From NCBI GenBank assembly GCA_025450915.1, contig JANWLH010000106.1, forward strand, positions 1 through 34,910: DNA of 34,910 bases, given 5' to 3'. The translations under genes were made by a program, and so were the position numbers. Below, one piece after another: positions 2,527-32,423 of the stretch. Every line of letters begins with the position of its first letter. The stretch's first letter is position 1. The DNA comes from Candidatus Limnocylindrales bacterium. GTDB taxonomy: Bacteria > Chloroflexota > Limnocylindria > Limnocylindrales > CSP1-4. The notes under the pieces were generated by a model. That model saw nothing but the letters and a program-made list of their open reading frames with translations, did not search any database and was not told the origin of the DNA.

Positions 2527-4143
2527 TCAGGGGAGGTCCGCGGGCGCCCGGCCGGTCGCGCCCGGCAGCGCCGCCGGTCCGGCGACCATGAACGGGTCGA
2601 ACGATTCCGAGCGCTCGACGACCGCGTCGGCGCCCAGCCGGCTGATCCCCGGCCGGTCGAGGGGCGAGCCGAGCACCGAGCTCCAGCCGTCGGTCGCAAG
2701 CCGCTCGAGGGTCGTGATCGCGGCGGCGACCGTCGCCCGGGCATGGTCGAGGGAGACGCCGCGCAGGTCGAGCGGCCCGTAGGTGTCGGCGACGTCCGCG
2801 GCGACCTCGATGAGCGCTCGTGTCTCGGACACCACCCGGCCGGCACCCGCCGAGCTCGTCCGGCGCACGATCAGGCCATTCCGGTCGGCCAGCGGCAGGG
2901 CCGCCCCGAGGACCGCTCGCCAGCGGACGGCCGAGCTCTCGCTGTCGGGCTCCTCGAAGACGAGCGGCTGGCCGGGCAGGGCGGCCCGGCGCAGGACCAC
3001 CTGGCCGACCGCCAGGGCTGCCGAATTGCGCTCCTCGATCAGCCATGGCGGGATCGCCCCGACGAAGACCCGGTCGGCCGGGATCCCGTCCCGCCGGGCG
3101 AGGGCCGCCCCGAGCAGCTGGAGGGCCAGCGCCCGCCCGGCCAGGGTACCGGGCCCCGAGGGTGCGCCGCGGGCGAGGTCCGGGGCGACGACGAGCGGAC
3201 CGGCGCCGAGCACGACGGCCGATCCCGAGCGGGCAATCAGCCGGTGGGCGAAGGCATGGTCGGCGAGGGCCCGATCCGGGTCGACGTTGCCGTCGACGAC
3301 CTCGGCGATCGGGTCGCCGTCGACGATATCCACTCGCTCGAAGGCGGCGACGACCGCCTGTTCCGGTCCGGCCAGGGGCTGCGCGGCGGTCGCCAGGCGG
3401 GCATAGGCTCGCCGCTCGGCGGCCGCCTCGTCGATCGCCAGGCGGACCTCGGCAAGACCGCGCTGGCTGCCCGACGGGGCGGGATCCGGTTCGCCCGGGC
3501 CCGGCCCGCTCCGGGCCCGCCAGGGCGGCAGGTCGAAGCCGGCGTCGTGGAGGCGATCGGAGAGCTCGCGGCCGGCCGGCACGCCGACCCGGATCACGTC
3601 GATGCCGGTCGCGACGAACAGCCCGGACTCGCGCGCTCCGTCGGCCGACTCCGGTTCCTCGGTCGACGACCCGACCCATGGCCGGGGGGCATCGCCGATC
3701 ACGGCCAGCAGCTCGAGCCGGGCGGTCCGGTTGGCGTCGATCCGCTCGAATGCCGAGGAGGCGAGGGCGCTCGCCTGGAGCTCGATCGCCGTCCTCCGGG
3801 CAGGGTCGTGGAGGAGCTCCGACTCGAGGCTGAGGTCGACGGCGCCGGACGCCACGTCGAGGGCCAGCGCCTGGGCACCGAGGTCGTACTCGGCCATCGC
3901 GGCGACGAACGGCAGGAGGATCCCGGCCGCCAGCCGGTCCGCCCGGCCGGCGACGTAGCGGTCGACCGCGGCGCCGGCCAGCGGTCGGCCGGCCCGGTCG
4001 ACGCCGGTGACCCCGAGGAGGCGCAGGATCGCACGCTCCTGGCCGACGGTGGTGCAGATGCTCGCCCGCGCACCCCAGGCGGCCGCGAGGGTATCGGCCA
4101 GGTCGACGAGGCGGTCGACCCGGGCGAGCGGGTGGTTGCTCAT
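2527..4143 (-). CDS. Divergent lysine 5,6-aminomutase alpha-subunit (KamD)-like protein
   Basis: A 538-residue protein resembling KamD, the PLP/adenosylcobalamin TIM-barrel subunit of D-lysine 5,6-aminomutase (about 516 residues). From memory of the Clostridium KamD sequence, the N-terminal motif TTVGQERAILRLLGVTGVD (31-49) matches nearly residue for residue. So do an AFERVD segment with a following GNVDPDRALADHAF region, and the C-terminal end with a SESFDPF motif. The central barrel is much more divergent: the Cys-rich NYCSGLC segment and the Arg-containing IRTTGQS motif of KamD are not visible (IRVGVPAG stands in the latter's place). No beta (B12-binding, KamE) subunit gene is in the window. 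It lies 7 bp after the P1 peptidase stop and 3 bp before the FAD oxidoreductase start. It may be an aminomutase with altered substrate, a partner of a distant KamE, or a non-catalytic descendant. Confidence 0.6.
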   Translation of the reverse strand: MSNHPLARVDRLVDLADTLAAAWGARASICTTVGQERAILRLLGVTGVDRAGRPLAGAAVDRYVAGRADRLAAGILLPFVAAMAEYDLGAQALALDVASGAVDLSLESELLHDPARRTAIELQASALASSAFERIDANRTARLELLAVIGDAPRPWVGSSTEEPESADGARESGLFVATGIDVIRVGVPAGRELSDRLHDAGFDLPPWRARSGPGPGEPDPAPSGSQRGLAEVRLAIDEAAAERRAYARLATAAQPLAGPEQAVVAAFERVDIVDGDPIAEVVDGNVDPDRALADHAFAHRLIARSGSAVVLGAGPLVVAPDLARGAPSGPGTLAGRALALQLLGAALARRDGIPADRVFVGAIPPWLIEERNSAALAVGQVVLRRAALPGQPLVFEEPDSESSAVRWRAVLGAALPLADRNGLIVRRTSSAGAGRVVSETRALIEVAADVADTYGPLDLRGVSLDHARATVAAAITTLERLATDGWSSVLGSPLDRPGISRLGADAVVERSESFDPFMVAGPAALPGATGRAPADLP

Positions 4144-4150: not shown

Positions 4151-5353
4151 TCACGCGCTCAGCCGGCCCGCGGCGGCGAGCATCGCCAGGGTGCGCTCGA
4201 CCGGCAGCCCCGCCAGCCGGTGGCCATCCCGGCCGATGACCGAATCGGCCACGAACAGGGAGTCGATGACCGCCTCCTCGGTCGCCTCGACCACCGCGGC
4301 GAGGAAGGGATCGATGGAGCCGTCGTGGAGGTGGGTCGTCGAGACGAGCGGGCCGTCGCCGCGGCGGGACCGGACGGCGGTCGAGATCGCGAGGAAGATC
4401 TCGCCCGACCCGTGGCCGCCGGTCGAGCCTGCCCTGGCGAGCCCCAGCCCGGCCCGCCGTGCCAGGCGGACGAGCTGGCCGGGCAGGAGCGGCGCATCGG
4501 TCGCCACGACGACGATGCAGCTGCCCTGCTCGTCGTCGGCCATCGACCTCCAGCCGTCCGCGACCAGGGCCGATCCGACCGCGACGCCATCGATCGTCAG
4601 GCGCTCCATCCGGCCGAAGTTGGTCAGGGTGAGCACGCCCACCGTGAACGCCGGGGCATCGCCCGCTCCGGGCTGGCCGGCGGCATGCCCGAAGCGCGGC
4701 CGGACGACGGCCGGGACGATCCGCGACGCGTTGCCGATTCCGGCCTTCAGCTCGAAGCCGTGCATCCCGACCCCGGCTCCGACGACACCGCTCGCGACCG
4801 GACCGGCCTCCGCGCCGCGGGCACCTTCGAGGGCTGCCCGAACGTCCGCCCCGGAGACCTGCACCGTTCGCGAGGTGTTCAGGTAGCCGTCGTCGCACTC
4901 GGCGACGACCGGCATCAGGGCGTCGTCGAGGCCCGCCCCGGGGATCCGTTCCACGAGCAGCTCGACGGCCGCGTCGTAGACCCGGCCGATCGCCATCGAC
5001 GAGGTCAGGAAGATCGGCGTCTCGATCAGGCCCCACTCGCCGATCGAGGTGATCCCGATCATCTCGCCCGCCCCGTTGAGCACCGCGGCGCCTGCCGCGA
5101 CGCGGTTGGTGAACAGCTCGCCTGGGCTGAACGGGACGATCGCCGTCACGCCCGTCCGGGCAACGCCCCGGCCGGCCGGCGGCGGCGGCTCGTCGCGCCA
5201 CACCGAGGCATGACCAACCGTGATCCCGGTCACGTCCACGATCGAGTTCGTCGGGCCGGGCGGCAGCAGGCCGATGCGCACGCCGAGGTCGCGAGGGCGC
5301 GGCCGCGCTGGTGGACCGCCGAACGTGGGTGGTACAGGAGCCGGCAACGTCAC
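4151..5353 (-). CDS. P1-family (DmpA-type) aminopeptidase
   Basis: A 400-residue homologue of DmpA, the self-cleaving L-aminopeptidase/D-Ala-esterase/amidase. The family matures by cutting itself before a Ser that becomes the N-terminal nucleophile. Here the Gly-Ser pair is at 277-278 in DEQGSC, followed by VVVATDAPLLPGQL as in the family, so Ser278 is the predicted nucleophile. The N-terminal RDLGVRIG..PPGPTNSIVDV region and the GEWGLIETPIFLT segment also fit. I chose the GTG at 5353: it keeps the family's N-terminus, avoids the M55 gene (ends 5400), and sits exactly 6 nt after a -10-like CATACT. The frame continues open to 5554 but that part overlaps the M55 gene and reads as low-complexity noise. 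Probably cytoplasmic; substrate likely short peptides with small or D-residues. Confidence 0.88.
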   Translation of the reverse strand: MTLPAPVPPTFGGPPARPRPRDLGVRIGLLPPGPTNSIVDVTGITVGHASVWRDEPPPPAGRGVARTGVTAIVPFSPGELFTNRVAAGAAVLNGAGEMIGITSIGEWGLIETPIFLTSSMAIGRVYDAAVELLVERIPGAGLDDALMPVVAECDDGYLNTSRTVQVSGADVRAALEGARGAEAGPVASGVVGAGVGMHGFELKAGIGNASRIVPAVVRPRFGHAAGQPGAGDAPAFTVGVLTLTNFGRMERLTIDGVAVGSALVADGWRSMADDEQGSCIVVVATDAPLLPGQLVRLARRAGLGLARAGSTGGHGSGEIFLAISTAVRSRRGDGPLVSTTHLHDGSIDPFLAAVVEATEEAVIDSLFVADSVIGRDGHRLAGLPVERTLAMLAAAGRLSA

Positions 5354-5399: not shown

Positions 5400-6227
5400 T
5401 CAGTCGACGATGCCGGCCAGCCGCAGTCCGGCGAGGAAGCCGCGATAGGCGACGAGCGGGTCGTCGGCGGCGAAGCGGACCGAGGTGTCGCCAACGCGCT
5501 CGGCGCCGGGCACGATCGCGGCGAAGTCCGCCTGGGCGGCGTGATGATAGGCAACCTCGATCACGTACGGCGGTGCGAGCACCAGCGGCTGCATCTCGCC
5601 GGCGATCGCCCGCCGGACCGCGCGCTCGGCTCCAGCCCGGACCGCTTCCCGGGCGGCGGTGGGATGGACCGCCACCGCAGCGTTGCGACCGAGGCCTTCC
5701 TTGACGACGACCCGCTCGGCCCACGGGAACCAGGCCGCGGTCTCGCCCGCGACGCGATCGTCTCCGCAGACCAGGCCGACCGGCACGCCCCAGGCCCCGA
5801 GGGCGATCGCGTTCAGCCCACTCTCGCCGACCGGCCGCCCGTTCAGGCTGGTGGCCACCGGCCGGCCCGAGTACGTGTGGGCGATCGTGCCGAGTGGGTC
5901 GCCGGCGCGAGCGTGATAGCCGACGAACAGGGCCACCCCGAAGCCCCGGTCGGGGCCGGCGCCGGCAACCATCGACCACGCCTTCTGGCCCTGGACGACG
6001 CGCGCCCGCGGGTCGACATCGATCGCGGTCAGGTTGTGCATCCCGCCATGGCTGTCGTTGACGACCACCTCGGTGGCCCCGCCCCGGAAGGCGCCGTCGA
6101 TCGCTGCGTTCGCCTCGCCCACCATCAGGGCGACCGCGGCCGGGTACTCGACATCGCCGCGGTTCGTCGGGGCTGGATGGCTGATCCCGGCGATGCCTTC
6201 CATGTCGACGCTGATGTAGGCCTTCAC
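5400..6227 (-). CDS. M55-family zinc D-aminopeptidase (DppA-like)
   Basis: A 275-residue protein, the same length as Bacillus DppA (274), a decameric zinc D-aminopeptidase acting on D-Ala-D-Ala and similar peptides. All family metal ligands are visible: Asp8 and Glu10 in SVDMEG, His60 in NDSHGG, His105 in GYHARAG and Glu135 in GESGLNA. His117 (IAHTYSG) corresponds to the proposed catalytic His115 of DppA. The start is GTG at 6227, preceded by a strong GGAGGAGG ribosome-binding site. It overlaps the MoaD-MoaE stop by 4 bp (GTGA), so it is translationally coupled to a gene with which it has no evident functional link. Expected to recycle cell-wall or environmental D-amino-acid peptides together with the P1 peptidase that follows. 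Confidence 0.92.
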   Translation of the reverse strand: MKAYISVDMEGIAGISHPAPTNRGDVEYPAAVALMVGEANAAIDGAFRGGATEVVVNDSHGGMHNLTAIDVDPRARVVQGQKAWSMVAGAGPDRGFGVALFVGYHARAGDPLGTIAHTYSGRPVATSLNGRPVGESGLNAIALGAWGVPVGLVCGDDRVAGETAAWFPWAERVVVKEGLGRNAAVAVHPTAAREAVRAGAERAVRRAIAGEMQPLVLAPPYVIEVAYHHAAQADFAAIVPGAERVGDTSVRFAADDPLVAYRGFLAGLRLAGIVD

Positions 6228-6985
6228 GATTCCTCCTCCACTGGACCGGACCGCGCCGGGCTGCCGATCCAGACATGGCCGTCGGCGAACCGCTCGGCCT
6301 TCCAGATCGGGGCCCGTGCCTTGAGCTCGTCGATGGCGTAGCGGGCCGCCTCGAATGCGGCATCACGATGTGGGCCGGCCGCCACCACGGCCACGCTGAC
6401 GGCGCCGAGGGGCACGAGCCCGAGCCGATGGACGATGGCCAGCCGATCGACCGAGAATCGGACGCGGACCTCGTCGGCGATCGTCCGCAGGATCTGCTCG
6501 GCCATCGCCTCATGCGCCTCGTAGTCGAGGCCCTCGACCGACCGGCCGGCATGCCGGGCCGCCTCGGCCTCCTGGCCCGGGGCGGGCGTGCCGGCGGTGG
6601 CCCGCGTCCGGCCGATGAAGCTGCAGATCGCGCCGTCGGCGTCGGTGGCCAGGCGCTCAGCGAGCTCGGCCAGGACCTCGAGGCCGAACGGCTCCGCCCG
6701 CAGCTCGATGATCGGCAGCCCGCCGGCCACCGGATCCGCCCCGCCGCTGACCGGCGGGATGCAGGCCAGCTCGTCGCCGTCGGCGAGCGTCTCGGCGGCA
6801 TCGGCGTAGACCCCGTTGCGGGCGAAGCGTACGGCGGTCCGGCCGGAGGCCAGGGCCGGGTGCTCGACGACGAGCGCCAGCCAGGCCGTCTCGATCGACG
6901 CGCCATCGGGCAGCTCGAGGTCCACGAGGCGGCGGCCGGCCAGCTCACGCTGGACGGCAAAAAGGCGGACGCGGACGTGGGTCAC
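6224..6985 (-). CDS. Fused molybdopterin synthase MoaD-MoaE
   Basis: Molybdopterin synthase inserts two sulfurs into cyclic pyranopterin monophosphate to make the molybdenum cofactor dithiolene. Normally MoaD (sulfur carrier ending in Gly-Gly) and MoaE (catalytic) are separate; here they form one 253-residue chain. Residues 1-82 are MoaD, ending PPVSGG with the diglycine at 81-82. Residues about 88-245 are MoaE, with HRDAAF at 206-211 and the catalytic lysines in LKARAPIWKAE (Lys222, Lys229). Because the diglycine is internal, it must be released by cleavage before thiocarboxylation, as reported for mycobacterial MoaX. The start is GTG (GTGACCCACG), lying inside the first of three 14-bp tandem repeats, so neighbouring copies offer out-of-frame alternative GTGs. 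No other moa, moe or mob gene is in the window. Confidence 0.93.
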   Translation of the reverse strand: MTHVRVRLFAVQRELAGRRLVDLELPDGASIETAWLALVVEHPALASGRTAVRFARNGVYADAAETLADGDELACIPPVSGGADPVAGGLPIIELRAEPFGLEVLAELAERLATDADGAICSFIGRTRATAGTPAPGQEAEAARHAGRSVEGLDYEAHEAMAEQILRTIADEVRVRFSVDRLAIVHRLGLVPLGAVSVAVVAAGPHRDAAFEAARYAIDELKARAPIWKAERFADGHVWIGSPARSGPVEEES

Positions 6986-7029: not shown

Positions 7030-7704
7030 TCAGCCGCGAACCGTCGCGACGAGCATGCCGTCGCCGACGGGCAGGACCGTGGCGACGAAGCCCGGATCGG
7101 CGAGGACCGCGGCATTGAATGCCCGGAGCTCGGCCGCCCCGTTCCGGGTCGAGACAGGATCCGCGGTGGCCCCGCTCCACAGGACGTTGTCGGCAACGAT
7201 CAGGGCGCCGGGGGCGAGACGAGGCCGGAGCGCCTCGAGATAGGCCTGGTACTCGTCCTTGAGGGCGTCGATGAAGACGAGATCGAACGGCCCCTGGAGC
7301 AGCGCGCCGGCCGCCGGGTCGCCGGGCCCGGCGGCGAATGCCTCGAGCGCCGGCCGATTGATCACCGTGACCTGCTCGTCGGGGATGCCTGCCTGGCGCC
7401 ACCAGGCCCGCGCCCGGCTGGTCCGCGACTCGTCCGGATCGAGGGTCACGATCGTGCCCCCGGCGGGTTGCGCGAGCGCCATCCACAGCGTCGAGTAGCC
7501 GAACGCGGTGCCCACCTCGACGATCCGCCGCCGGTTCGCGGCCAGCGCCGCGAGCACCCGCCCACCGGCCCGGTCGAGGATCGGCACGTTCTCGGGTTCG
7601 GCGGCCTGCTCGATCGCGAGGAGTGCCGCGTGCGGCACGCGGCCGATCGACTCGATGTAGTCGCGTTCGACGCGTCCGGGAACGTAGCCGTCGGTAGTGC
7701 TCAT
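7030..7704 (-). CDS. Class I SAM-dependent O-methyltransferase (caffeoyl-CoA OMT type)
   Basis: A 224-residue cation-dependent O-methyltransferase of the family that includes plant CCoAOMT and bacterial catechol-type OMTs. The SAM-binding motif is VEVGTAFGYSTLW (62-74), a following acidic loop contains TLDPDE (87-92), and the divalent metal ligands are predicted as Asp146 (FIDALKD), Asp172 and Asn173 (VADNVLW). Length and motif spacing match the family with nothing missing. It begins with ATG 10 bp after the stop of the membrane-protein gene, behind a GAGGA ribosome-binding site. Substrate unknown; usual substrates are vicinal diols on small aromatic molecules. Confidence 0.88.
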   Translation of the reverse strand: MSTTDGYVPGRVERDYIESIGRVPHAALLAIEQAAEPENVPILDRAGGRVLAALAANRRRIVEVGTAFGYSTLWMALAQPAGGTIVTLDPDESRTSRARAWWRQAGIPDEQVTVINRPALEAFAAGPGDPAAGALLQGPFDLVFIDALKDEYQAYLEALRPRLAPGALIVADNVLWSGATADPVSTRNGAAELRAFNAAVLADPGFVATVLPVGDGMLVATVRG

Positions 7705-7714: not shown

Positions 7715-8551
7715 TCATGCGATCAATCGTGCTCCGAAATAGAGGCCGGCGGCGAGGATCGTGCCCGCCGCGATCGAGCCGACGTTGATATAGAGCAGGC
7801 CGGTGGCGGACTCCATCGATCGCGATCTGGCCGTCTGGATGGCTGCCCACGAGACGACGAGGGGGAAGACGAGGCCGACCAGCAGGCGCAGCCAGATGAA
7901 CTGGGCCCAGGGCCCGGTCAGCGGCGAGAACGGGCCGCCGCCGCTGCCGGCTCCGAGGAGCATCGAGCCGGCGAACAGGACGATCTGGGCCGCCACGAGC
8001 CCGAACAGGATCCGGCTGAGGAGGATCAGCGGCGCCTCGGGCAGCTTCGGCGTGACGAGATACCAGTGGCCCAGGATCATCGCCACGAAGACGCCGCCGG
8101 TCACGGCCGCCAGCAGGAGGTCCTGGCCGAGGGCCACGGCAGTGCCGAGCGGGTCGCCGCCCCACGCCAGGGCACCGAACGCGATCGCCGCCACGCCGGC
8201 GAGCAGGCCGCCGGCGGCGACGAATCGGCCGGCCGGCCGGCCGAGGACGAACGCGTATGCCAGGGCGAGGACCGCGAAGGCGATCAGTGCATCGTCGCGC
8301 GGCGTCGTCCAGGCGGGATCGATCACGACGGTCGAACCGGGGGCCGCCGCGGCCTGGACCAGGGCGCCGTCGCTGAGGTGGGCGAGGAGACCGAAGGCCG
8401 CGGCGCAGGCCGCGCTGAAGCCGAGAAAACCGCGGGTCGCCGACGTTCGTACGCGCATCAGGACAACGGACCCGAACGCCCCGACGGCGAGGGCGGTGAG
8501 CAGCGTCCAGTTGATGAACGCGAGGTTCTCCGCGATCCGCTGGGCTGGCAT
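7715..8551 (-). CDS. Multi-pass membrane protein of unknown function
   Basis: I do not recognise this family. The 278-residue product has about eight hydrophobic helices (roughly 12-33, 42-61, 87-106, 109-131, 135-160, 172-196, 211-233, 247-270) and short polar loops. A GHWYLVTPKLPE segment after the fifth helix holds a conserved-looking His-Trp-Tyr cluster, and a longer loop with GAGSGGGPFSPLTGPW lies between helices six and seven. Two ATGs stand in tandem (8554 and 8551). I prefer 8551 because a -10-like TACACT lies exactly 6 nt before it and no Shine-Dalgarno is present, consistent with a leaderless mRNA; starting at 8554 adds one Met. It is the first gene of the long minus-strand run. Function cannot be deduced. 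Confidence 0.8.
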   Translation of the reverse strand: MPAQRIAENLAFINWTLLTALAVGAFGSVVLMRVRTSATRGFLGFSAACAAAFGLLAHLSDGALVQAAAAPGSTVVIDPAWTTPRDDALIAFAVLALAYAFVLGRPAGRFVAAGGLLAGVAAIAFGALAWGGDPLGTAVALGQDLLLAAVTGGVFVAMILGHWYLVTPKLPEAPLILLSRILFGLVAAQIVLFAGSMLLGAGSGGGPFSPLTGPWAQFIWLRLLVGLVFPLVVSWAAIQTARSRSMESATGLLYINVGSIAAGTILAAGLYFGARLIA

Positions 8552-8557
8552 CATCCG

Positions 8558-18503: not shown

Positions 18504-19388
18504 TCAGGCCGTCGCCCCTCGCTGGTAGGCGCCCAGGACCCGGACCATCGTCGTCAGCGGCCGGATGGCGTCGAGCGCGCCGGCGGCCGGGGAGCCGACC
18601 AGGTCGGCGTCGATGTCGGCCCAGAAGGTGTACTCCCAGGCGACCTGCCGGCTGGGCCGCGATTCGAGCGTGCTCAGGTTGAGGTGATGGTCGGCCAGGA
18701 CGCGCAGGATGGCCAGCAGCGTGCCGGGCTCGTTGCGGACCGCGAACGCCAGCGTGGTGCGCGGCGCGGCGGGTCCGCCCAGCGGCCGCCGCCAGTGCGC
18801 CGGAAACGCCTCGTCGGGCCGCCCGACGAGGATGAACCGGGTCCGGTTGGCCGGGTCGTTCTCGATTCCATCGGCCAGGATCGCCAGGTCGAAGAGGCCG
18901 GCGGCCCGTGGCGAGAGGACGGCCGCCGAGCGAGTTTCGGCGCGTTCCCGGATCAGCTTCCCGGCACCGGCCGTGTTGTACGTCGTCAGCAGCGCCCACG
19001 GTCGACGGCGCAGGAACGCATCGGCCTGGCCGAAGGCCTGGACGTGGGAGTAGACGCGGTCGATCTCGTCGAGGCTGGCGCCGGGCAGGGCCGCCAGGCA
19101 AAGCCGCACCGGGACCACCACCTCGCCGCGAATGACGAGGTCGTGCTCGAGGAGCAGGTCGTAGTTCTCGCGGACCGTGCCGTTGACGACGTTCTCGATC
19201 GGCAGGACGCCGACCTCGGCGCGGCGATCGTGGACCGCCTCGAAGACCTCCCGAAAGCCGGCCACCGGCACCGACCGGGGCGCCTCGAGGGCGGCGAGGA
19301 GGGCGTCCTCGGCAAATGCGCCGGGCTCGCCCGAGAAGGCCGCCCGCGGCCCGGCCTCGGCGGCCGTCCGCTCGCTCGCCTCGGCCAA
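18504..19388 (-). CDS. pheA: Prephenate dehydratase with C-terminal ACT domain
   Basis: Converts prephenate to phenylpyruvate for phenylalanine synthesis. With the start chosen here the protein has 294 residues: a Pdt catalytic domain (about 14-190) with VLPIENVVNGTV (61-72), SHVQAFGQ (114-121), NTAGAG (138-143) and the hallmark TRF at 183-185, then an ACT domain (about 211-285) with the phenylalanine-binding motif ESRP at 242-245. The catalytic frame is open back to 19838, but that region encodes the LeuA-type regulatory protein in another frame. The most economical start is the TTG at 19388, 26 bp after that gene's stop, though a CTG further up cannot be excluded. It is the last gene of the ilv-leu operon; feedback inhibition by phenylalanine is expected. 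Confidence 0.88.
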   Translation of the reverse strand: MAEASERTAAEAGPRAAFSGEPGAFAEDALLAALEAPRSVPVAGFREVFEAVHDRRAEVGVLPIENVVNGTVRENYDLLLEHDLVIRGEVVVPVRLCLAALPGASLDEIDRVYSHVQAFGQADAFLRRRPWALLTTYNTAGAGKLIRERAETRSAAVLSPRAAGLFDLAILADGIENDPANRTRFILVGRPDEAFPAHWRRPLGGPAAPRTTLAFAVRNEPGTLLAILRVLADHHLNLSTLESRPSRQVAWEYTFWADIDADLVGSPAAGALDAIRPLTTMVRVLGAYQRGATA

Positions 19389-19414
19389 CGGTCCAGGTTC
19401 GCCTGCGGGCTGGC

Positions 19415-19959
19415 TCAGCGCTCGAACCAGGCGGTCGTGTCGTGGTGGGCGGCGCCCTCGTCGAGCTCGGTCCCGGCGGCTCGGGTGGCCGATTCGGGTC
19501 GGGCCCGCTTGCGATTGCCGGCGGCCTCGGTGGCCCCCGCCCAGTGGGCTTCGTCGAGGAGCAGGTTCAGGGCAGCGATGTAGGCCTCGATCGACGCCGC
19601 GATGATGTTCACGTTGCTGCTCGTGCCGGTGTAGTCGCCGCTGGCCCGACGGCCCTCGGCCGATGACGGCGGGGCGATCCGGATCGTCACGACGCCTTCG
19701 GACTCGGGCCCCTCGGAAACGGCGTGGACGTCGTAGGCGATGAGCCGCGGATGGCCGGCCAGGACGTCGGCCAGTGCCCGGTCGACGGCCCGCAACAGGG
19801 CATCGACGGGACCGTTGCCCTCGGCGGCGGCTTCCCACTGGTGGTCACCCGAGGCAATGACCACGGCGCCCCGGCTCTGGACCTGGCTGCCCGACGAGAC
19901 GGTCCAGCGGGCGAGATGGAGAGCGGGCACCCGGTCGTCCGGCGCCCGGTTTTCGCTGG

Positions 19960-19963
<4 letters not shown>
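19415..19963 (-). CDS. Stand-alone LeuA-type allosteric (dimerisation/regulatory) domain protein
   Basis: A 182-residue protein consisting of the C-terminal regulatory domain of 2-isopropylmalate/citramalate synthases without any catalytic barrel. Key segments are AAEGNGPVDALLRAVDRAL (about 46-64), a YDVHAVSEGPESEG strand, and SSNVNIIAASIEAYIAALN (about 125-143). These parallel the corresponding stretches of LeuA and CimA encoded just upstream ([26 protein letters not shown]; and [25 protein letters not shown]). A basic then acidic 35-residue tail follows. The ATG overlaps the cimA stop by 4 bp. It may sense leucine or isoleucine and regulate a partner synthase in trans, or be a decayed duplicate of the cimA 3' end; intact motifs favour a functional protein. 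Confidence 0.82.
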
Positions 19964-21656
<1,693 letters not shown>

Positions 21657-21657
<1 letters not shown>

Positions 21658-22835
21658 CAGGCGACCACCTCCGGGCGGCGGATCGCGATCCGGTCGACGA
21701 TCGCCTCGGTCATCGCCGCGGTTCCGACCCGGGTCAGGCCGGCGGTCGTGACAGCGTCGGCCGGCCACAGGTCGGCGGTCCGGAACCCGTCGTCGATCGC
21801 CTGGCTCACGGCTGCCTCGATCGCGGCTGCGGCGTTCGCCTGGCCCAGCGACCAGCGCAGGAGCATCGCCCCCGAGAGGATCGTGCCGATCGGGTTGGCC
21901 AGGTCACGGCCAGCGATATCGGGCGCCGAGCCATGGATCGGCTCATACAGGCCGTGCAGGCCGTGGGCGGTCCGGCGGCTGCCGACCGACGCCGAAGGGA
22001 GCATCCCGAGCGAGCCCGCGAGCACGGACGCCTCGTCCGAGAGGATGTCGCCGAACAGGTTCTCGGTGACCAGGACGTCGAACCCGGCCGGCCACTTCAC
22101 GAGCTGCATCGCACACGAGTCGACGAGCTGGTGGTTGAGCTGGACGTCGGGGAAGCCGGCGCCGACCTCGATCGCGACCCTGCGCCACAGCCGGGAGGTG
22201 GCCAGGACGTTGGCCTTGTCGACGCTGGTGACGTTCGAGCGACGACCACGGGCGAGCTCGAAGGCGAGGCGGACGACGCGCTCGATCTCGCCGTCACTGT
22301 ACGGCAACGTGTCGCTGGCGGCGCGCGAGCCGGCAGCCCCGCTGGCCTCGGTCCGCGCGCCGAAGTACAGGCCACCGGTCAGCTCGCGGATGATCAGCAG
22401 ATCGACTCCCTCGAGGAGCTCCGGGCGCAGCGGCGACGCGGCGACGAGGCTCCGATGGATCGTGACCGGGCGCAGGTTGGCGAAGAGGCCGAGGCCGCCG
22501 CGCAGGGCGAAGAGGGCCTGCTCCGGCCGGACGGACGAGGACGGGTCGTCCCACTTCGGGCCACCGACCGCGCCAAGGTAGACCGCGTCGGCAGCCCGGC
22601 ACGCCGCCACGTCCTCCGGCCTGACCGCGACGCCGTAGGCATCGATGCCGGCTCCGCCGACGACGAGCTCCGTCCATTCGAGGCCGAAGCCGGCCGCCGC
22701 GGCGGTCGCCTCGAGCACCGACCGGCCGGCGGCCAGGACATCCGGGCCGACGCCGTCACCGGGGATCGCGGCGAGGCGATACGTCCGCCACGAGGTCAGG
22801 GCATCCCCGGCCGGCTCCTCGCGCAGGTTGGTCAC
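21657..22835 (-). CDS. leuB: 3-isopropylmalate dehydrogenase
   Basis: NAD-dependent oxidative decarboxylation of 3-isopropylmalate in leucine synthesis, and probably of methylmalate in the citramalate pathway. The 392-residue protein carries IPGDGVGPDV near the N-terminus, AVGGPKWDD, the substrate-loop RELTGGLYFG, the metal-binding signature NLFGDILSDEASVLAGSLG, and HGSAPDIAG for NAD binding. The start is GTG at 22835, with a GAGGAG site 5 nt upstream; it overlaps the leuA stop by 4 bp (GTGA). About 18 extra residues precede the first family strand, which may be genuine or point to a slightly later start. Length otherwise is usual. Confidence 0.95.
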
Positions 22836-24460
22836 GGAAGCTCCTCGGCTGAGCGCCGGCTGGCGAAGGCCGGGTCGATGCCGTTGATCTCGGCCCCGTG
22901 GAGCTTGTTCACGGCGACGAGATAGGCCTCGAGCGAGGCCTCGATGATGTTCGTGGACAGGCCGTGGCCGCTCACGACGAGCGCCCCCGGGCCCTCGTCC
23001 GATGAGCGCCGGCAGCGAACCAGCACCTGGCCCTGGGCATCCTCGCCCGCCGAGACCGCCTTGATCTCGTACTCGGTGAGGACCGGGTGCCAGCCGAGGG
23101 TCGGCTGGAGGACCTCGTCAACCGCCGAATAGAGGGCGTTGACCGGGCCGTTGCCGGTCGCCTCGGTCGCGTGGACCTCGCCGCCGACCGAGATCGAGAC
23201 GGTTCCCGTGCCCTTGCCACCGTGGGAGCTCGTGACGCTCCAGCCTTCGAGCTGGATCGATGCCGGGACGTCGCCCGCCCGGCGCTCGACGATCGCGAGC
23301 AGGTCGGCGTCGGTGACTTCCTTCTTGAGGTCGGCCAGCGCGATCGCCTGGCGGTAGACCGCGTCCAGGGCGTCCCCCTCGAGCTCGTAGCCCAGTTCGT
23401 GGAGCTTGCCCTGGAGGCCCTTCCGGCCGGACAGCTTGCCGATCGTCAGCTGGCTGCCGCTCAGCCCGACCGACTGGGGGGTCATGATCTCGTAGGTCAG
23501 CGGGTTCTTGATCACGCCGTCCTGGTGGATCCCCGACTCGTGGGCGAACGCGTTGCCGCCGACGATCGCCTTGTTCGGCTGGACCGTGAACCCGGTCAGG
23601 TAGCTCACGAGCCGGCTGGCGGCCGTGATCTGCTCGGTCTGGATACGCGAGCCGAGCTCGGGGAACTGGGTGGGCCGCGTCCGGAGGGCCATGACGACCT
23701 CTTCGAGCGAGGCATTGCCGGCGCGCTCGCCGAGGCCGTTGATCGTGACCTCGACCTGCCGGGCGCCGGCCTGCACCGCGGCGAGCGTGTTGGCCGTTGC
23801 CAGGCCAAGGTCGTTGTGGCAGTGGACCGAGACCGTGGCAGCGCGGCCGACCCGGGCGACGACCCGCTCGACGAGCCGGCCGAACTCGGCCGGGATCGCG
23901 TAGCCGACGGTGTCGGGGATGTTCACGGTGCTCGCCCCGGCAGCCACAACCGCCTCATAGATGTCGAGCAGGTACTCGACATCGGTCCGCGAGGCGTCCT
24001 CGGCCGAGAACTCGATCTCGGCTCCGGCGCCGAGCTCCTGCCGACCGTAGGTGACCCAGCGGACCGCCTGGCGGAGCGCCTCGTCCCGGCCGATCCGGAG
24101 CTTGTGCTTGAGGTGGATGTCAGACGTGGCAATGAAGACGTGCAGGTGGGGACTCTCCGCGCCACGGATCGCCTCGACGGCGCGCTGGGGATCGCCGTCC
24201 TTGCAGCGAGCCAGGGCCGCGACGGCGACGCCGCGGGTCTCCTCGGCGATCCGCCGGACCGCCTCGAAGTCACCCGGTGAGGCGGCCGGGAAGCCGGCCT
24301 CGATCACGTCGACCTTGAGCCGGACGAGCTGGCGGGCGACCTCGAGCTTCTCGGCGGCGGTCAGCCCGGCACCCGGCGCCTGCTCGCCGTCGCGCAGGGT
24401 GGTGTCGAAGATCCGGACCGAACCCGGCTCGATCGATACGCCAGGCCCGACGGCGGTCAT
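22832..24460 (-). CDS. leuA: 2-isopropylmalate synthase
   Basis: First committed step of leucine synthesis: 2-oxoisovalerate plus acetyl-CoA gives 2-isopropylmalate. The 542-residue protein has the catalytic barrel with [13 protein letters not shown] (18-30), [12 protein letters not shown], the metal ligands in [15 protein letters not shown], and [15 protein letters not shown], then the linker helices. The C-terminal regulatory domain (about 395-530) contains [12 protein letters not shown] and [19 protein letters not shown] and is expected to bind leucine. The ATG overlaps the ilvC stop by 4 bp. Nothing is truncated; the C-terminus ends about 15 residues after the regulatory domain. Confidence 0.96.
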
Positions 24461-25512
24461 CGGGAGCCTCCACCCGGTGCGCCGACGGAGGCCTGGGCCT
24501 GGCCGGCCTTGACCTCGATCGGGTTGAGGAAGGCCATCTGGCTGCGCAGCGAGGCGCCGACGCGCTCGACGAGATGATCGTGGTCCTGCTGCCGGAGGCG
24601 GTCGAAGTTCGGCCGGCCGGCCTCGTTCTCGGTGATCCAGCGGGCGGCAAACGAGCCGTCCTGGATCTCGGTCAGGACCTGCTTCATCGTCTCCCGGACG
24701 TGGCTGTCGATGATCCGCGGGCCGCTGACGTAGTCGCCCCACTCGGCGGTGTCGCTGACGCTGAAGCGCATGAAGTTGAGCCCGCCCCGGTACATCAGGT
24801 CGACGATCAGCTTCAGCTCGTGGAGCGTCTCGAAGTACGCGAGCTCGGGCTGGTAGCCGGCCTCGACGAGGGTCTCGAAGGCCATCTTGACGAGGGCGGC
24901 CGTCCCGCCGCACAGGACCGACTGCTCACCGAACAGGTCGGTCTCGGTCTCCTCCGCGAAGGTCGTCTCGAGGACGCCTGCCCGCGTGGCGCCGATCGCC
25001 CGGGCATAGGCGAGGGTCTTGGCCCGGGCCGTGCCGGTCGCGTCGCGATAGACGGCGAAGAGGGCGGGCACGCCGCCGCCGGCCTGGTAGACGCTGCGCA
25101 GGAGGTGGCCGGGGCCCTTCGGCGCCACCATCCCGACGTCGATCCCGGCGGGCGGGTCGATCCGGTTGAAGTGGATGTTGAAGCCGTGGGCGAACATCAG
25201 CAGCGCACCGGGCCGCAGGTTCGGCCCGATCTCGGTGTCGTAGACCGCCTTCTGGGCGGTGTCCGGGACGAGGATCATGACGACGTCCGCCGAGCGGACC
25301 GCGTCGGCGACGTCGGCCACCCGGATACCGGCGTCCTCGACGAGCGCCCGGCTCTTCGAGCTGGCCGCCAGTCCGACGACCACGTCGACGCCCGACTCGT
25401 GGAGGTTCAGGGCATGAGCATGGCCCTGGCTGCCGTAGCCGATGATCGCCACGGTCTTGCCCGCCAGGGCCGCCGGATCGGCATCGTTGTCGTAGTACAT
25501 CTTCGCGGTCAT
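24457..25512 (-). CDS. ilvC: Ketol-acid reductoisomerase
   Basis: Isomerises and reduces acetolactate or acetohydroxybutyrate with NAD(P)H and Mg2+. It is a 351-residue class I (short) enzyme: Rossmann motif [15 protein letters not shown] near 23-37, a phosphate-binding loop [16 protein letters not shown] with the catalytic His, MVAPKGPGH, then the helical knot domain with the metal ligands in [13 protein letters not shown] and the late ERYFE-like region [14 protein letters not shown]. The ATG overlaps the ilvN stop by 4 bp. The serines in the phosphate loop suggest NADPH, but cofactor choice is inference. A Gly/Ala-rich C-terminal tail of about 15 residues extends past the usual end. Confidence 0.97.
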
Positions 25513-26114
25513 CGCTTGAGCGCCTCCTCGATGGATGCCGAGCCGCGCGCCATGACCACGGTCCCGGTGCGAACGAGCTCCTTGATTCCGTAGCTCCGCA
25601 GGAGCGCGACGATCGCGTCGACCTCCGGCTCCGAGCCGGCAGCCTCGACGATCACCGAGCCCTCCGTGATATCGACGAGGCGGGCCCGGTAAAGCTCCGC
25701 CACCTTGACGATCTCGGCCCGGTTCGCGTCGGTCGCCCGGACCTTGATGAGCGCCAGCTCGTGCTCAACCGTCGGCTCGCCGGCGAAGTCCTGGACCTTG
25801 AGCACGTCGATCAGCCGGTAGAGCTGCTTGCTGACCTGCTCGACGGCGACGTCGTCGCCGCGCAGGGTGATGGTCATCCGGCTGACATCGGCCTGGTCGG
25901 TGTGGCTCACCGACAGCGACTCGATGTTGAAGTTCCGGGCGCGCATCAGGCTGGCGACCCGGTTGAGGACGCCCGGCCGGTTCAGGACGATCGCCACCAG
26001 GACATGGCGGTTGACCTCGCCGGAGCCCGGCAGCGCGCGCGCCGGGGGCGCCGAGTGGGCCGGGCCGGCGCCGTTCGAGCGGTCGCTGTCGAGGTCCTCC
26101 ACGGGCAGGCTCAT
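25509..26114 (-). CDS. ilvN: Acetolactate synthase small (regulatory) subunit
   Basis: The regulatory partner of IlvB, which confers valine feedback inhibition and activates the large subunit. The 201-residue protein has a non-conserved N-terminal 34 residues, an ACT domain (about 36-107) with [20 protein letters not shown] and ESLSVS, and the second conserved domain (about 115-195) with HELALIKV and [14 protein letters not shown]. The valine-binding ACT motif appears complete. The ATG overlaps the ilvB stop by 4 bp and is itself followed by ilvC with another 4-bp overlap, so subunit ratio is likely set by translational coupling. Confidence 0.95.
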
Positions 26115-28045
26115 TCCTCGGGCCCGTCCCACTTCTCGATCAGGTCGGACAGGCCCTTGCCGGCGGGCATCATCGGGAAGATGTTCTGGGTCTCGGCGAT
26201 CTCGAACCAGACGAGGGCCGGGCCGTCCACGGCCTGGGCGGCCTCGATCGCCGGATCGACCTCGTCGGGCGTGCGCGCCCGGAAGGCCGGGATCCCGAAG
26301 GCGTCGGCCAGCTTGGCGAAGTCCGGCCCGAGCAGATGGGCGGAGTGGTAGTTGCCCCCGTAGATGATCTCCTGCCACTGCCGGATCATGCCCAGCTTCT
26401 TGTTGTCGAAGAGGGCGATCTTCACCGGGATCCGGTCCTGGACCAGGGTCATCAGCTCCTGCGACGTCATCTGGAAGCCGCCGTCGCCGATGATCGCCCA
26501 GGTCTCGCGCTCGGGCCGGCCGAGGGCCGCGCCCATCGCCGCGGGCAGGCCGAAGCCCATCGTCCCGAGGCCGCCCGAGCTGACGTGGCTGTTGGGCAGC
26601 CGGAAGCCGGCGTAGCGCGCCAGCCACATCTGGTTCTGGCCGACGTCGGCGACATACGTCGCCCGGTGATCGGTCAGGTCGCCGATTCGCTCGCAGACGA
26701 AGTCCGCGGTCAGGACGCCCTCACGCCAGGCACCCGATCCGTGCCAGCTGCTGGCCTCGGATTCGGCCCGCCAGTCGGCCAGCTCCGCGAGGTACTCGGC
26801 ACGGGCCGCCGGCGGGGTTTCCTCGACCATGGGAGTGAGCGCCCGCAGGACCCGGCCGGCATCGCCCACGATCGGGACCTCGACCGCCACGTTCTTGCCG
26901 ATCTCGGCCGGGTCGATGTCCACGTGGATGATCCGGGCATACGGCGCGTAGGTCCGGACGTTGCCCGTCACCCGGTCGTCGAAGCGCATGCCGATCGCGA
27001 TCAGCAGGTCGGCCGACTGGATCGCCCGGTTGACGTGCTTCCAGCCGTGCATGCCCATGAACCCGTAGGCCAGCGGGTGATCCTCGGAGATCGCGCCGAT
27101 CCCGAGCAGGGTCCAGGCGACGGGGATGCTGGTCTTCTCGGCGAAGGCCAGCAGGTCTGCCCACGCTTCGGCATGGAGGACACCGTGGCCGGCCAGGATC
27201 ACCGGACGCGTTGCCCGGGCGATCTCGGCGGCGGCAACCTTGAGCTGGCGGGGATGGCCGTCGAAGTTCGGCCGGAAGCCCGGCAGGCCGGCGATCACCT
27301 CGGCCTCGGTCGGGTGCTGGGCCGACGTCTCCTGCTGGAGGGCGTCCTTGGTGATGTCGATGTGGACGGGACCCGGCCGGCCCGTCCGGGCGATATGGAA
27401 TGCCTCGGCGAAGACCCGCGGCAGGTCGTCCGCGTCACGGACCAGGTAGTTGTGCTTGGTCATCGGCAGGGTGATGCCGTTGATGTCGATCTCCTGGAAC
27501 GCGTCCTTGCCGATCAGGGCCCCGGGCACGTTGCCGGTGATCGCGACCATCGGGATCGAATCGAGGAGGGCCGTGCCGATCCCGGTGACCAGGTTCGTGG
27601 CGCCCGGACCGGACGTGCCCAGGCAGACGCCCACCCGTCCGGTGACCCGGGCATACCCGTCGGCGGCATGGGCGCCGCCCTGCTCGTGGCGGACGAGGAC
27701 ATGGCGGAGCTCGGGGTAGTCGCCCAGGACGTCGTAGAGCGGCAGGACCACGCCGCCCGGATATCCGAAGAAGACATCGACACCCTGCCGGAGGAGCGCT
27801 TCGCAGACCACGTCCGCGCCGATCCGGCTGCGCTTGAGCGGCTTCGCGTCGCGGAGCATCGCGTTGCGGGCCTGCTCGATGGCGGCCGCGCCGGCGGTCC
27901 CGTCATGGGGCACGTGGCCGTGCCGCTCGCCATGCTGCGCCGGCCGCCGGGGCGGGGCCGCTGTCGTCGGCGCAGCCGGGCGGGCAGCCGCTCCTGCAGC
28001 CGCTGTCGCGGCCGGCCCTGCCGGTTCGCCCTTCGTGATCGTCAT
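26111..28045 (-). CDS. ilvB: Acetolactate synthase large (catalytic) subunit
   Basis: TPP- and FAD-dependent condensation of two pyruvates to acetolactate, or pyruvate plus 2-oxobutyrate to acetohydroxybutyrate. From the ATG at 28045 it has 644 residues. The conserved part starts near 73 (RSRIGADVVCEALLRQG), with GYPGG, the catalytic Glu121 in RHEQGGAHAADG, FAD-binding central segments, and the TPP-Mg motif GDGGFQ (520-525) ending at Asn548. The first 60 residues are an Ala/Pro-rich, low-complexity extension; a start at the internal Met63 would remove it, but the upstream ATG has a GGAG site. Its mRNA carries a long leader with the attenuator described separately. Frame continuation to 28291 runs through the terminator and is rejected. 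Confidence 0.95.
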   Translation of the reverse strand: MTITKGEPAGPAATAAAGAAARPAAPTTAAPPRRPAQHGERHGHVPHDGTAGAAAIEQARNAMLRDAKPLKRSRIGADVVCEALLRQGVDVFFGYPGGVVLPLYDVLGDYPELRHVLVRHEQGGAHAADGYARVTGRVGVCLGTSGPGATNLVTGIGTALLDSIPMVAITGNVPGALIGKDAFQEIDINGITLPMTKHNYLVRDADDLPRVFAEAFHIARTGRPGPVHIDITKDALQQETSAQHPTEAEVIAGLPGFRPNFDGHPRQLKVAAAEIARATRPVILAGHGVLHAEAWADLLAFAEKTSIPVAWTLLGIGAISEDHPLAYGFMGMHGWKHVNRAIQSADLLIAIGMRFDDRVTGNVRTYAPYARIIHVDIDPAEIGKNVAVEVPIVGDAGRVLRALTPMVEETPPAARAEYLAELADWRAESEASSWHGSGAWREGVLTADFVCERIGDLTDHRATYVADVGQNQMWLARYAGFRLPNSHVSSGGLGTMGFGLPAAMGAALGRPERETWAIIGDGGFQMTSQELMTLVQDRIPVKIALFDNKKLGMIRQWQEIIYGGNYHSAHLLGPDFAKLADAFGIPAFRARTPDEVDPAIEAAQAVDGPALVWFEIAETQNIFPMMPAGKGLSDLIEKWDGPEE

Positions 28046-28170
28046 CGGTCTGGTCTCCGTGGTCGGTCCCGTGGTCCCGGGCCGCTGTCCTTGGTCGTTG
28101 TGCTGTCTGCGCTGGTCCGGTGTGGTCCGGTCCCGACTGGACCGGATGAGCGGCCGTCGCGACGGCCATG

Positions 28171-28197
28171 AAAAAACCCCCGCCTCCCGGCGAGGGT
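28171..28197 (-). terminator. Attenuator terminator in the ilvB leader
   Basis: On the minus strand, ACCCTCGCC (28197-28189) pairs with GGCGGGGGT (28184-28176) around a GGGA loop, followed directly by a run of T through 28171. This is a textbook intrinsic terminator, and it lies 126 nt before the ilvB start codon, not after a gene. Thus it can only make sense as a conditional stop. It begins 27 nt after the leader-peptide stop. Confidence 0.88.
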
Positions 28198-28261
28198 CCC
28201 GTTGGTTCTCGGTGGTGCTGTCGCTACCTCCGCGATCCTCCGTTCTCCTGCCGGGAGCCGG
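28180..28261 (-). promoter_or_regulatory. Competing antiterminator pairing of the ilv attenuator
   Basis: Leader segment CCGGCTCCCGGCAGG (minus strand, 28261-28247) can pair with CTCGCCGGGAGGCGG (28194-28180) at 13 of 15 positions (12 Watson-Crick, 1 G-U), with a perfect 8-bp core. The second segment contains the terminator loop and parts of both arms, so the two structures exclude each other. The first segment overlaps the last codons of the leader peptide just after its Val/Leu/Ile run: a ribosome stalled in the run leaves it free, and one reaching the stop codon covers it. Confidence 0.75.
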
Positions 28262-28427
28262 TAATGAGGCCGAGAAGGCCATCCAGCCCAAGGAGAAGCG
28301 AGCGAAGAATGGGGAGTACTACGACGTCGACGAAGCCGGTCTCTGGCAGGGGCACGTTCACGCGGCGGCCGTCGCTGGTGACGACGATCGCGACGTGACG
28401 GCGATTCTGCCGGTTGGCCAAGCCCAC
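28224..28427 (-). CDS. Branched-chain amino acid leader peptide (ilv attenuator)
   Basis: A 67-codon ORF in the ilvB mRNA leader, GTG at 28427 with GGAG at 28434-28437 (6-nt spacing), ending TAG at 28224. Codons between 28331 and 28263 read VDVVVLPILRSLLLG then LDGLLGLI: 4 Val, 9 Leu and 2 Ile in 23 codons. Many are codons uncommon in the surrounding genes (GTA twice, CTT four times, ATT twice), as expected if slow decoding is the signal. It is followed by the antiterminator and terminator. The start is less certain than the end: GTGs at 28361 and 28355 would give a shorter peptide, without a Shine-Dalgarno. A small structured protein is an alternative reading, but does not explain the adjoining terminator. 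Confidence 0.75.
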   Translation of the reverse strand: MGLANRQNRRHVAIVVTSDGRRVNVPLPETGFVDVVVLPILRSLLLGLDGLLGLITGSRQENGGSRR

Positions 28428-28450
28428 GTTCGACTCCGTGGCGGGTCCCG

Positions 28451-28466
28451 GACGGCGTTTGCCGTC
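28451..28466 (-). promoter_or_regulatory. 5' hairpin of the ilv leader
   Basis: GACGGC and GCCGTC form a perfect 6-bp stem around AAAC, a few nucleotides after the predicted transcription start and upstream of the leader-peptide start. It may stabilise the mRNA 5' end or time the first ribosome. Confidence 0.45.
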
Positions 28467-28477
28467 TGGTTCGGGCG

Positions 28478-28506
28478 AGTGTACGAGGCAACGATCGATT
28501 GCGCAA
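28478..28506 (-). promoter_or_regulatory. Candidate promoter of the ilvBNC-leuAB-cimA-pheA operon
   Basis: Minus-strand TTGCGC (28506-28501) and TACACT (28483-28478) separated by 17 bp. TACACT recurs as the -10-like hexamer at other starts in the window. The predicted start point near 28471 leaves about 44 nt before the leader-peptide GTG. Confidence 0.55.
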
Positions 28507-28916
28507 CCGTGGATTGCCCACCGAAGGTACCCCTGCGGCGCCGCCGATCTTCGCACGTGCCGGGAGGCGCGCGGTTCGGGGCGCCACCCCCGGCCGGCCC
28601 CAGGTTGGGACGAAGGTCGTTGAGGGACGGACTACGACGCTGCTTGCCCGTCTCCGCCCGCTGCCGCCCGGTCGACCTGGGACGATTGTCGCTGGGAGAC
28701 GCGTTACACGGTCGCGGCGGCCCGGGAGGGCGCCGAGGGCCTCGCCTCGTGCGTCGCATTGGCCGGCTCGCGGCTTCGCGAGCATGAGATTCCTCGATCC
28801 CCGGCAATACCGCGTCTGGTGGCGACAATCGGCCCAACTTCGGCCCCAGGCCGCGGCACCACGCGCGACCCCGAACCCCGAGGCGCCCGGGGCGGAGCCT
28901 GTGCTAGCCTCAAAAC
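28507..28916. other. Intergenic region between ilv promoter and leuC
   Basis: About 410 bp with no convincing gene on either strand. The only clear structure is a perfect 7-bp hairpin GCTCGCG-GCTT-CGCGAGC at 28766-28783, without a T-run. I see no T-box, leader peptide or other known regulatory RNA on the plus strand ahead of leuC; the leuC start itself appears leaderless. Confidence 0.5.
28905..28916 (+). promoter_or_regulatory. Candidate -10 placing leuC start as leaderless
   Basis: TAGCCT (28905-28910) is preceded by TGTGC and followed after exactly 6 nt by the GTG of leuC. No Shine-Dalgarno lies in between, so transcription would begin at or next to the start codon. Confidence 0.45.
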
Positions 28917-30371
<1,455 letters not shown>

Positions 30372-30378
30372 GCCGACG

Positions 30379-31002
30379 ATGGCTGACGCCTTCACGACGT
30401 TCACGAGCGCGGTGATCCCGCTGCCGGCCGAGAACGTGGACACCGACCAGATCGTGCCGGCCCGCTACCTCAAGATGACCGACAAGGCAGGCCTCGCCGA
30501 TGCCCTGTTCCATGACTGGCGCTACGACGCCGACGGCGGCCAGCACGAGCCGCTGTTCGTGATGGATCGCCTGGCCATGGCCGGTCGGCGGATCCTCCTG
30601 GCCGGCGACAACTTCGGGACGGGCTCGTCCCGCGAGCACGCGCCGTGGGCGCTCGTCGCATGGGGGATCCGGGCGATCCTCTCGACGAGCTTCGCCGACA
30701 TCTTCCGGGGCAACGCCCTCAAGAACGGGCTCCTGCCGATCGTCGTCGAGGAGGAGCGCCATCGCCAGCTCTTCGAGCTGCTGGCGCAGGATCCGGACCT
30801 CGAGCTGACGGTCGATCTCGAGTCGCAGCTGATCCACCTGCCGGGCGACGAGGACCTGCCCTTCGACGTCGATCCGTTCGCCAAGAAGATGCTCCTCGCG
30901 GGCACCGACGAGATCGGCTGGCTGCTCGCCCGGATGCCCGAGATCGAGGCCTACCAGGCCGCCAATCCGGTGCGCATCGACACCCGGGTCGGCGCGGACT
31001 GA
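30379..31002 (+). CDS. leuD: 3-isopropylmalate dehydratase small subunit
   Basis: The swivel-domain partner of LeuC, which completes the active site. The 207-residue protein has the family opening ENVDTDQIVPARYLK near 18-32, GDNFGTGSSREHAPWAL (about 75-91) with the substrate-contacting Ser-Ser-Arg, and ILSTSFADIFRGNALKNGLLP (shared FADIF motif) at about 100-120. Length is typical of bacterial LeuD with its C-terminal extension. The ATG is 7 bp after the leuC stop, so the two subunits are co-translated. A separate promoter for the next gene lies 23 bp after its stop. Confidence 0.97.
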   Translation: MADAFTTFTSAVIPLPAENVDTDQIVPARYLKMTDKAGLADALFHDWRYDADGGQHEPLFVMDRLAMAGRRILLAGDNFGTGSSREHAPWALVAWGIRAILSTSFADIFRGNALKNGLLPIVVEEERHRQLFELLAQDPDLELTVDLESQLIHLPGDEDLPFDVDPFAKKMLLAGTDEIGWLLARMPEIEAYQAANPVRIDTRVGAD

Positions 31003-31024
31003 TACCCATCCCGGCGGTCGCCGC

Positions 31025-31036
31025 GATACTGACCCG
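31025..31036 (+). promoter_or_regulatory. Candidate -10 placing the MarP-like gene start as leaderless
   Basis: GATACT (31025-31030) ends exactly 6 nt before the GTG at 31037, in the 34-bp gap after leuD. No Shine-Dalgarno is present between them. Confidence 0.45.
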
Positions 31037-32221
31037 GTGAACCTGGTCGACGTCGTCATCATCGGGATCCTGATCTTCGCCCTCGTGGCAGGGCTCGCCT
31101 CGGGCGCCTTTCCGCAGCTCGGCGGCCTGGCCGGCGCCATCGTCGGCGGCGCCTTCTCGATCCTCGTCCTGCTGCCCGTCGCCCAGGACTGGCTGCAGAC
31201 CCTCGACCCACCGATCCGGGCCGTCGTCGTGCTCGTCGGGATCGTGGGCATCGTCGGCCTGGGCGAGGCGATCGGCTCCGGGATCGGCTCGCGGATCCGC
31301 GAGCGGCTCGTCGACCACGGCTTCCTGGGCGGACTCGACCGGGCCGCGGGCGGGCTGCTCGGGCTTGCCCAGGGCGTCCTGGTCGTCTGGCTCGTCGGCG
31401 GCGTCCTGGCCGCCGGACCGGTGCCGTCGATCGCCGCGGCCGTCCAGCATTCGGGGATCGTTCGCGGGCTGGCCGGCGTCCTGCCGCCGCCGACCGAGAT
31501 CGTCGGGGAGCTGGGCAAGTGGCTGGATGCCTCGGGCCTGCCCGACGTCTTCATCGGCTTCGAGCCCTTCCCTGCCGCGCCGGTCGACCCGCCGACCGAT
31601 GCGGAGGCCCAGGCGATCGTCGCCAGGGCCGTCGCCTCGACGTTCCTGGTCCGGGCCGATGCCTGCGGGTACGTCCTGAGCGGCACGGGCTTCGTGGTCA
31701 AGCCGGGCTACGTCGTGACCAACGCCCATGTCGTCGCCGGATCCAACGAGATCTCGATCGGCCGCGACAGCGGGCCGCAGTCCAAGGCGTCGGCCGTCCT
31801 CTTCGACCCCGAGCTCGACGTCGCCCTGCTCTACGTGCCGGGCCTGAGCGCTCCTGCCCTGACCCTCTCCGATACCCTCCCGACGCACGGGACCCTTGCC
31901 GCGGCCCTCGGCCACCCGGACGGTGGCAGCCTGGCGACGATCGCCGCCGCGGTCACCAACACCTACCAGGCGCAGGGCCGGGACATCTACGGCACGAGCA
32001 TCGTCAGCCGTCAGATCATCGAGCTCCAGGCGGCGATCCAGCAGGGCGACAGCGGCGGACCACTCGTGCTCAAGGACGGCACCGTCGGCGGGGTGGTGTT
32101 CGCGGAGGCCCAGACCGACCCGAATGTCGGCTACGCGCTGTCACCGATCGCGATCGAGGACCGGATCCAGGACGGCCTGACCCGGAAAGCCCCGATCAGC
32201 ACGGGCGACTGCACTCGCTGA
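31037..32221 (+). CDS. MarP-like membrane-anchored serine protease (CvpA + trypsin-like)
   Basis: A 394-residue protein closely parallel in layout to mycobacterial MarP (Rv3671c, 397 residues), an acid-resistance extracytoplasmic protease. Residues 1-130 form four hydrophobic helices of the CvpA/colicin-V-production family. A linker is followed by a chymotrypsin-fold domain (about 195-385) with catalytic His231 (TNAHVVAG), Asp261 (DPELDVALL) and Ser339 (QQGDSGGP). Cys210 and Cys392 match in position the MarP disulfide (214-395), which in mycobacteria controls activity. The GTG at 31037 is preceded by GATACT at 6 nt. Presence suggests a monoderm-style periplasm or cell-wall zone where envelope substrates are processed. 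Its placement among leucine genes looks coincidental. Confidence 0.9.
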
Positions 32222-32234
32222 TCGGGTGGGGCGT

Positions 32235-32384: not shown

Positions 32385-32423
32385 TTGGCCTCGAACCAGG
32401 CCAGCACCCACGAGGGACCCGCG

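Follow-up and report, generated by a model that had tools for sequence, protein, structure and literature searches.

A divergent homologue of the lysine 5,6-aminomutase subunit KamD has probably become a stand-alone, cofactor-free barrel in one family of Chloroflexota

Results

The KamD-like gene and its neighborhood

The stretch of DNA analyzed here (the window) is a contig of 34,910 nucleotides (C106 in our genome set) from a metagenome-assembled genome (MAG) of a soil bacterium, a Candidatus Limnocylindrales bacterium; the MAG is 69.6% complete. KamD is the TIM-barrel alpha subunit of lysine 5,6-aminomutase, an enzyme dependent on vitamins B12 and B6. The KamD-like gene of the window (positions 2527 to 4143, minus strand) runs from an ATG at 4143 to a stop codon ending at 2527, encodes a protein of 538 amino acids, and is part of an apparent operon of seven genes, all on the minus strand. 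The first gene of this apparent operon (7715 to 8554) encodes an unannotated hydrophobic protein of 279 amino acids, probably membrane-spanning, which has no Pfam match and belongs to a protein cluster (c2) found in at least 29 loci of the KamD-like family. It is followed by genes encoding: (i) a class I SAM-dependent O-methyltransferase (Methyltransf_3; 7030 to 7704; PF01596, 98 bits), which is conserved in many loci; (ii) a MoaD-MoaE fusion (molybdopterin synthase; 6224 to 6985; PF02391 and PF02597); (iii) an M55 (DppA-type) D-aminopeptidase (5400 to 6227; PF04951, 281 bits), present in about one quarter of the homologous loci; and (iv) an S58 (DmpA-type) aminopeptidase (4151 to 5284; PF03576, 308 bits; start codon uncertain), present in some of the homologous loci, whose stop codon precedes the KamD-like start by 7 nt. 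The KamD-like gene is followed, after 3 nt, by one for an FAD-dependent amine/amino-acid oxidoreductase of the DAO family (1108 to 2523; PF01266, 186 bits; TIGR03329, 252 bits, below the cut-off); this oxidoreductase gene was seen only in genera g1, the window's own, and g12.

The neighborhood was found to be shared among the homologues in part. The MoaD-MoaE fusion gene was the most common upstream neighbor, lying in the same-strand run in 32 of the 38 loci with enough sequence and in most genera, while the peptidase genes come and go and most relatives have neither the peptidases nor the oxidase. In the three loci of genus g13 that were inspected, the KamD-like gene adjoins leucine/phenylalanine biosynthesis and phosphoribosyltransferase genes. 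The window itself carries, at positions 18507 to 34157, a large leucine/isoleucine biosynthesis region with a prephenate dehydratase gene (2-isopropylmalate/citramalate synthase-type, leuB, ilvC, ilvNB, leuCD, and ilvD), part of which is the new neighbor of the KamD-like gene in g13.

The frequent placement of the fusion gene upstream is what would be predicted if the KamD-like protein helped to make the molybdenum cofactor or to mature the MoaD-MoaE fusion; however, such a role was judged very improbable when co-occurrence was considered. Genus g13 keeps the KamD-like gene at another locus in 20 of its 21 genomes, with a MoaE match in none of the 21, and the reverse was found in 17 other genomes of the window's family (f1), which have MoaE and no KamD-like gene. 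An obligate link to molybdenum cofactor synthesis was thus rejected. The fusion is frequent in the family, and since the MoaD-type Gly-Gly (PPVSGG) is internal to its chain, MoaD would have to be released by cleavage before it could carry sulfur.

Homology to KamD

The original prediction had described the protein as divergent but KamD-like, and this description was borne out by several comparisons. The protein scored 90.9 bits on PF09043 (Lys-AminoMut_A), for which the cut-off is 25, and no other fold was indicated. On the KamD equivalog model NF052384 it reached 81.6 bits, far under the cut-off of 600 and compared with 880 bits for a canonical Chloroflexota KamD. By phmmer, residues 30 to 400 aligned to three solved KamD chains (E 4e-12 to 2e-15). 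A profile built from 35 family members matched 1xrs_A over chain residues 12 to 499 (E 5.4e-40), with the next, unrelated match at E 0.26, and hhalign of the family against the canonical Chloroflexota KamD yielded a probability of 99.9 and E 1.4e-31 over 486 columns at 24% identity. All 35 aligned members matched both PF09043 and NF052384, the latter below cut-off (best E 1.2e-34). The KamD-like gene therefore descends from KamD or has a common ancestor with it, and a KamD-type TIM barrel is implied by the profile homology to 1xrs; AlphaFold2 with a five-sequence input returned a mean pLDDT of 40 and a pTM of 0.26, too low for a usable model. The likeness to KamD (PDB 1xrs, 8t0v, and 9q1a) is full-length and includes the N-terminal TT..ER...RL.GV.GVD...PL segment as well as E252, R253, D255, D260, R274, and D278. 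Of the terminal KamD motifs that had been called clear, the N-terminal segment held up, whereas the C-terminal motif is weak and was seen only by profile-profile comparison.

Distribution and descent

The closest public relatives of the window protein were found in Chloroflexi MAGs from permafrost (palsa, Chersky) at 83 to 84% protein identity. PF09043 was detected in 79 of the 177 genomes of the class, spanning 20 genera and never exceeding 123 bits. All 79 belong to f1, of which 28 of the 107 genomes are without the gene. When 400 genomes of the phylum were sampled, canonical KamD (780 to 860 bits) turned up in just four, which belong to two other families, and in the same sample the KamD-like family profile found only f1 members and these four genomes. 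In the tree, the KamD-like family was monophyletic on a long branch, approximately 3.7 changes per column from KamD. Most of the KamD-like genera with several members formed clades, which suggests that the gene is mainly vertically inherited. Outside Chloroflexota, relatives were sampled without system, by one genome-contig scan, which returned four loci, all in Chloroflexi, and by scans of viral contigs and plasmids, which returned none. The open-access literature yielded no paper dealing with this group or with KamD homologues that lack the cofactors. Weak PF09043 matches in genomes G246 and G423 were short open reading frames unlike KamD and were judged to be chance. Separately, a contig-edge fragment in another Chloroflexota family (G186:C12:16-381, locus L137) resembled the KamD N-terminus at 28 bits and is possibly a further divergent branch.

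Replacement of the cofactor contacts

In KamD, PLP is contacted by Arg184, Arg268, and Ser189 (phosphate), Ser238 (pyridine nitrogen), Tyr263 (stacking), Asn299 (phenolic oxygen), and Tyr236 (PMC3958899). Glu341 is the likely adenosine contact, and Asp298 is an active-site residue of which mutants have been studied (PMC3958899, PMC12429584). The 1xrs chain numbering was found to equal that of the literature by counting along the phmmer alignment. In the window protein, these contacts were replaced: R184 by V188, R268 by G285, S189 by E193, S238 by Q255, Y263 by A280, N299 by P316, Y236 by A253, E341 by P366, and D298 by G315. The replacements extended to the family: among the 35 relatives, R184 was Val in 33, S189 was Glu in 34, D298 was Gly in 33, N299 was Pro in 29, and Y236 was Ala or Val in 27; R268 was mostly Gly or Asp, E341 was Pro, Ala, and others, and Y263 was never Tyr among the residues listed. 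S238 was retained in 5 only, and the other KamD contacts in scattered single cases. As the original prediction had noted, the Cys-rich segment (NYCSGLCMPE in KamD) and the IRTTGQS motif were replaced, and they read ATAAQPLAGPE and VGVPAGRE, respectively. The register of these assignments is considered secure because the blocks that contain the sites have no gaps and are bounded by anchors common to both families (Y230, R232, P243, E244, E252, R253, D255, D260, R274, and D278), and because phmmer, MAFFT, and hhalign gave the same register at the contact sites. The conserved Lys370 of KamD was also replaced, by V395 in the window protein and by Ala or Val in 30 of the 35 relatives. No lysine was conserved among these relatives, the most common Lys column reaching 2 of 35, so the Schiff-base lysine has not moved into the KamD-like protein itself.

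A PLP/AdoCbl TIM barrel is common to KamD and D-ornithine 4,5-aminomutase (OraE; NF040743), as are the contacts R184, S189, R268, Tyr263, Ser238, and Asn299 (PMC3958899). In contrast to OraE, the KamD-like proteins are about 500 to 570 amino acids long, with PF09043 only and no fused C-terminal B12/PLP-lysine domain; the PLP contacts that OraE and KamD share are absent from the family, and only one of 35 members matched the OraE model (E 6.9e-5). A change of substrate would spare these shared contacts, and their loss argues against one of the two readings originally offered, that of a new aminomutase subfamily with a different substrate. The other reading, a KamD fold used without cobalamin, was supported by the full-length homology, the family-wide replacement of PLP and adenosine contacts, and the lack of KamE in the class.

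Search for the KamE partner

KamE supplies both B12 and the PLP-binding lysine (Lys144 beta) (PMC3958899). A genome-wide search for it had been proposed, and with PF16554 (OAM_dimer), a model to which a KamE with a dimer domain diverged past recognition would be invisible, none of the 177 class genomes passed the cut-off, including the 79 with the KamD-like gene; 53 of the 177 have a completeness of 90% or more and a contamination of 5% or less. Matches of 11 to 19 bits fell below the cut-off and were treated as chance. The absence was judged on relatives, given the incompleteness of the source MAG. In the same search, all four genomes with canonical KamD passed; KamE accompanies, as its obligate partner, every true KamD found in the phylum sample. 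In two of these four, kamE was on a different contig from kamD, which indicates that unlinked copies were detectable. In G279 and G321 (loci L134, L135, L129, and L130), KamD is intact with kamE on another contig; such unlinking could be a step toward the loss of kamE. With both KamE and the PLP/adenosine contacts lost, the known mechanism of lysine 5,6-aminomutase is not available to the KamD-like protein.

The neighbors of the KamD-like gene are, unlike the canonical setting, unrelated to lysine fermentation. The lack of KamE, 2,3-aminomutase, and lysine-fermentation genes that had been noted nearby was confirmed for the window, but for 2,3-aminomutase it did not extend to the genus, where a lysine 2,3-aminomutase (AblA/KamA; 550 bits against a cut-off of 525) was found elsewhere. 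The source genome has a contig-edge copy (G000:C115:2-928, locus L147), and others of the genus are at loci L144 to L146; no obvious beta-lysine acetyltransferase gene lies beside the copy at L144. This enzyme could supply beta-lysine to a working AdoCbl/PLP aminomutase of new substrate, in which another B12 protein had replaced KamE. Candidates for such a protein exist, as the B12-binding proteins checked in the source genome included corrinoid methyltransfer proteins (MtgC/MtbC-like) and a methylmalonyl-CoA mutase C-terminal domain. However, a borrowed B12 protein would leave the enzyme without the PLP-binding lysine, which belongs to KamE (Lys144 beta, PMC3958899) and for which no conserved lysine substitutes. 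Throughout the family, other residues stand in place of the adenosine glutamate and of those that contact PLP at its phosphate, ring, and O3′, and no OAM_dimer protein rose above the cut-off in the 177 genomes. We therefore regard this alternative as very unlikely.

New conserved residues and selection

Although the cofactor sites and the partner are lost, the gene does not behave as a decaying, functionless KamD relic. The reading frame is open in nearly all relatives across the 20 genera, 32 columns are invariant in the 35 sequences, and dN/dS is about 0.14 to 0.18 for the window gene versus three close relatives, similar to that of the neighboring genes. This strong purifying selection refutes decay, which we consider hardly credible. 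Six residues absent from KamD were found to be nearly fixed in the KamD-like family (E193, R228, R305, R337, W367, and W487). From sequence comparison, several of the new conserved residues would sit at the predicted C-terminal ends of the barrel strands, where a ligand would be expected. Conserved residues by themselves do not prove catalysis, and conservation is highest in the N-terminal segment and in helices with a probable structural role.

Discussion

Overall, these results suggest that the window gene encodes a divergent homologue of KamD which has probably been repurposed as a stand-alone, cofactor-free barrel that no longer carries out AdoCbl/PLP radical amino shifts. After this chemistry ceased, the mouth of the barrel would have been remodeled, with E193 placed on the loop that formerly bound the PLP phosphate, R337 on a conserved GAGPLVVAPD...GR loop after strand 5, and W367 after strand 6. 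The remodeled mouth may handle a different ligand, probably small and partly anionic. In the window's genus, the KamD-like gene is probably co-transcribed with the two aminopeptidase genes and the FAD amine oxidase gene, and on this basis the likeliest setting in the window's lineage, albeit a doubtful one, would be the degradation of peptides or of amino acids, perhaps of the D form.

Such a barrel may, as we tentatively propose, represent a new, cofactor-independent enzyme family whose active site is formed from E193, R337, and neighboring conserved residues; if true, it would rank among the rare adenosylcobalamin enzyme cores to have dropped both cofactors and their partner subunit and gained a new reaction. 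It could also be a non-catalytic pseudoenzyme, in which the KamD barrel serves as a binding, sensing, or scaffolding subunit, a possibility that deserves some but limited credence. Every known catalytic contact has disappeared without any evident new dyad of the classical catalytic type, the strongest conservation falls on the N-terminal segment and the probably structural helices, and the patchy loss of the gene (28 of 107 f1 genomes) suits an accessory role. Counter to this possibility, E193, R337, and W367 at the predicted mouth are nearly invariant, beyond what maintenance of the fold needs.

KamD is known solely as half of a radical enzyme that depends on two vitamins. The occurrence of a conserved branch in 20 genera of one family indicates that its barrel can be maintained in the absence of B12, PLP, and the partner holding both, which is relevant to the ways in which B12 enzymes are lost or recycled. 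Furthermore, the PF09043 label 'D-lysine 5,6-aminomutase' is wrong as a function for the KamD-like genes, and its use would falsely predict lysine fermentation and a demand for B12 in soil Chloroflexota.
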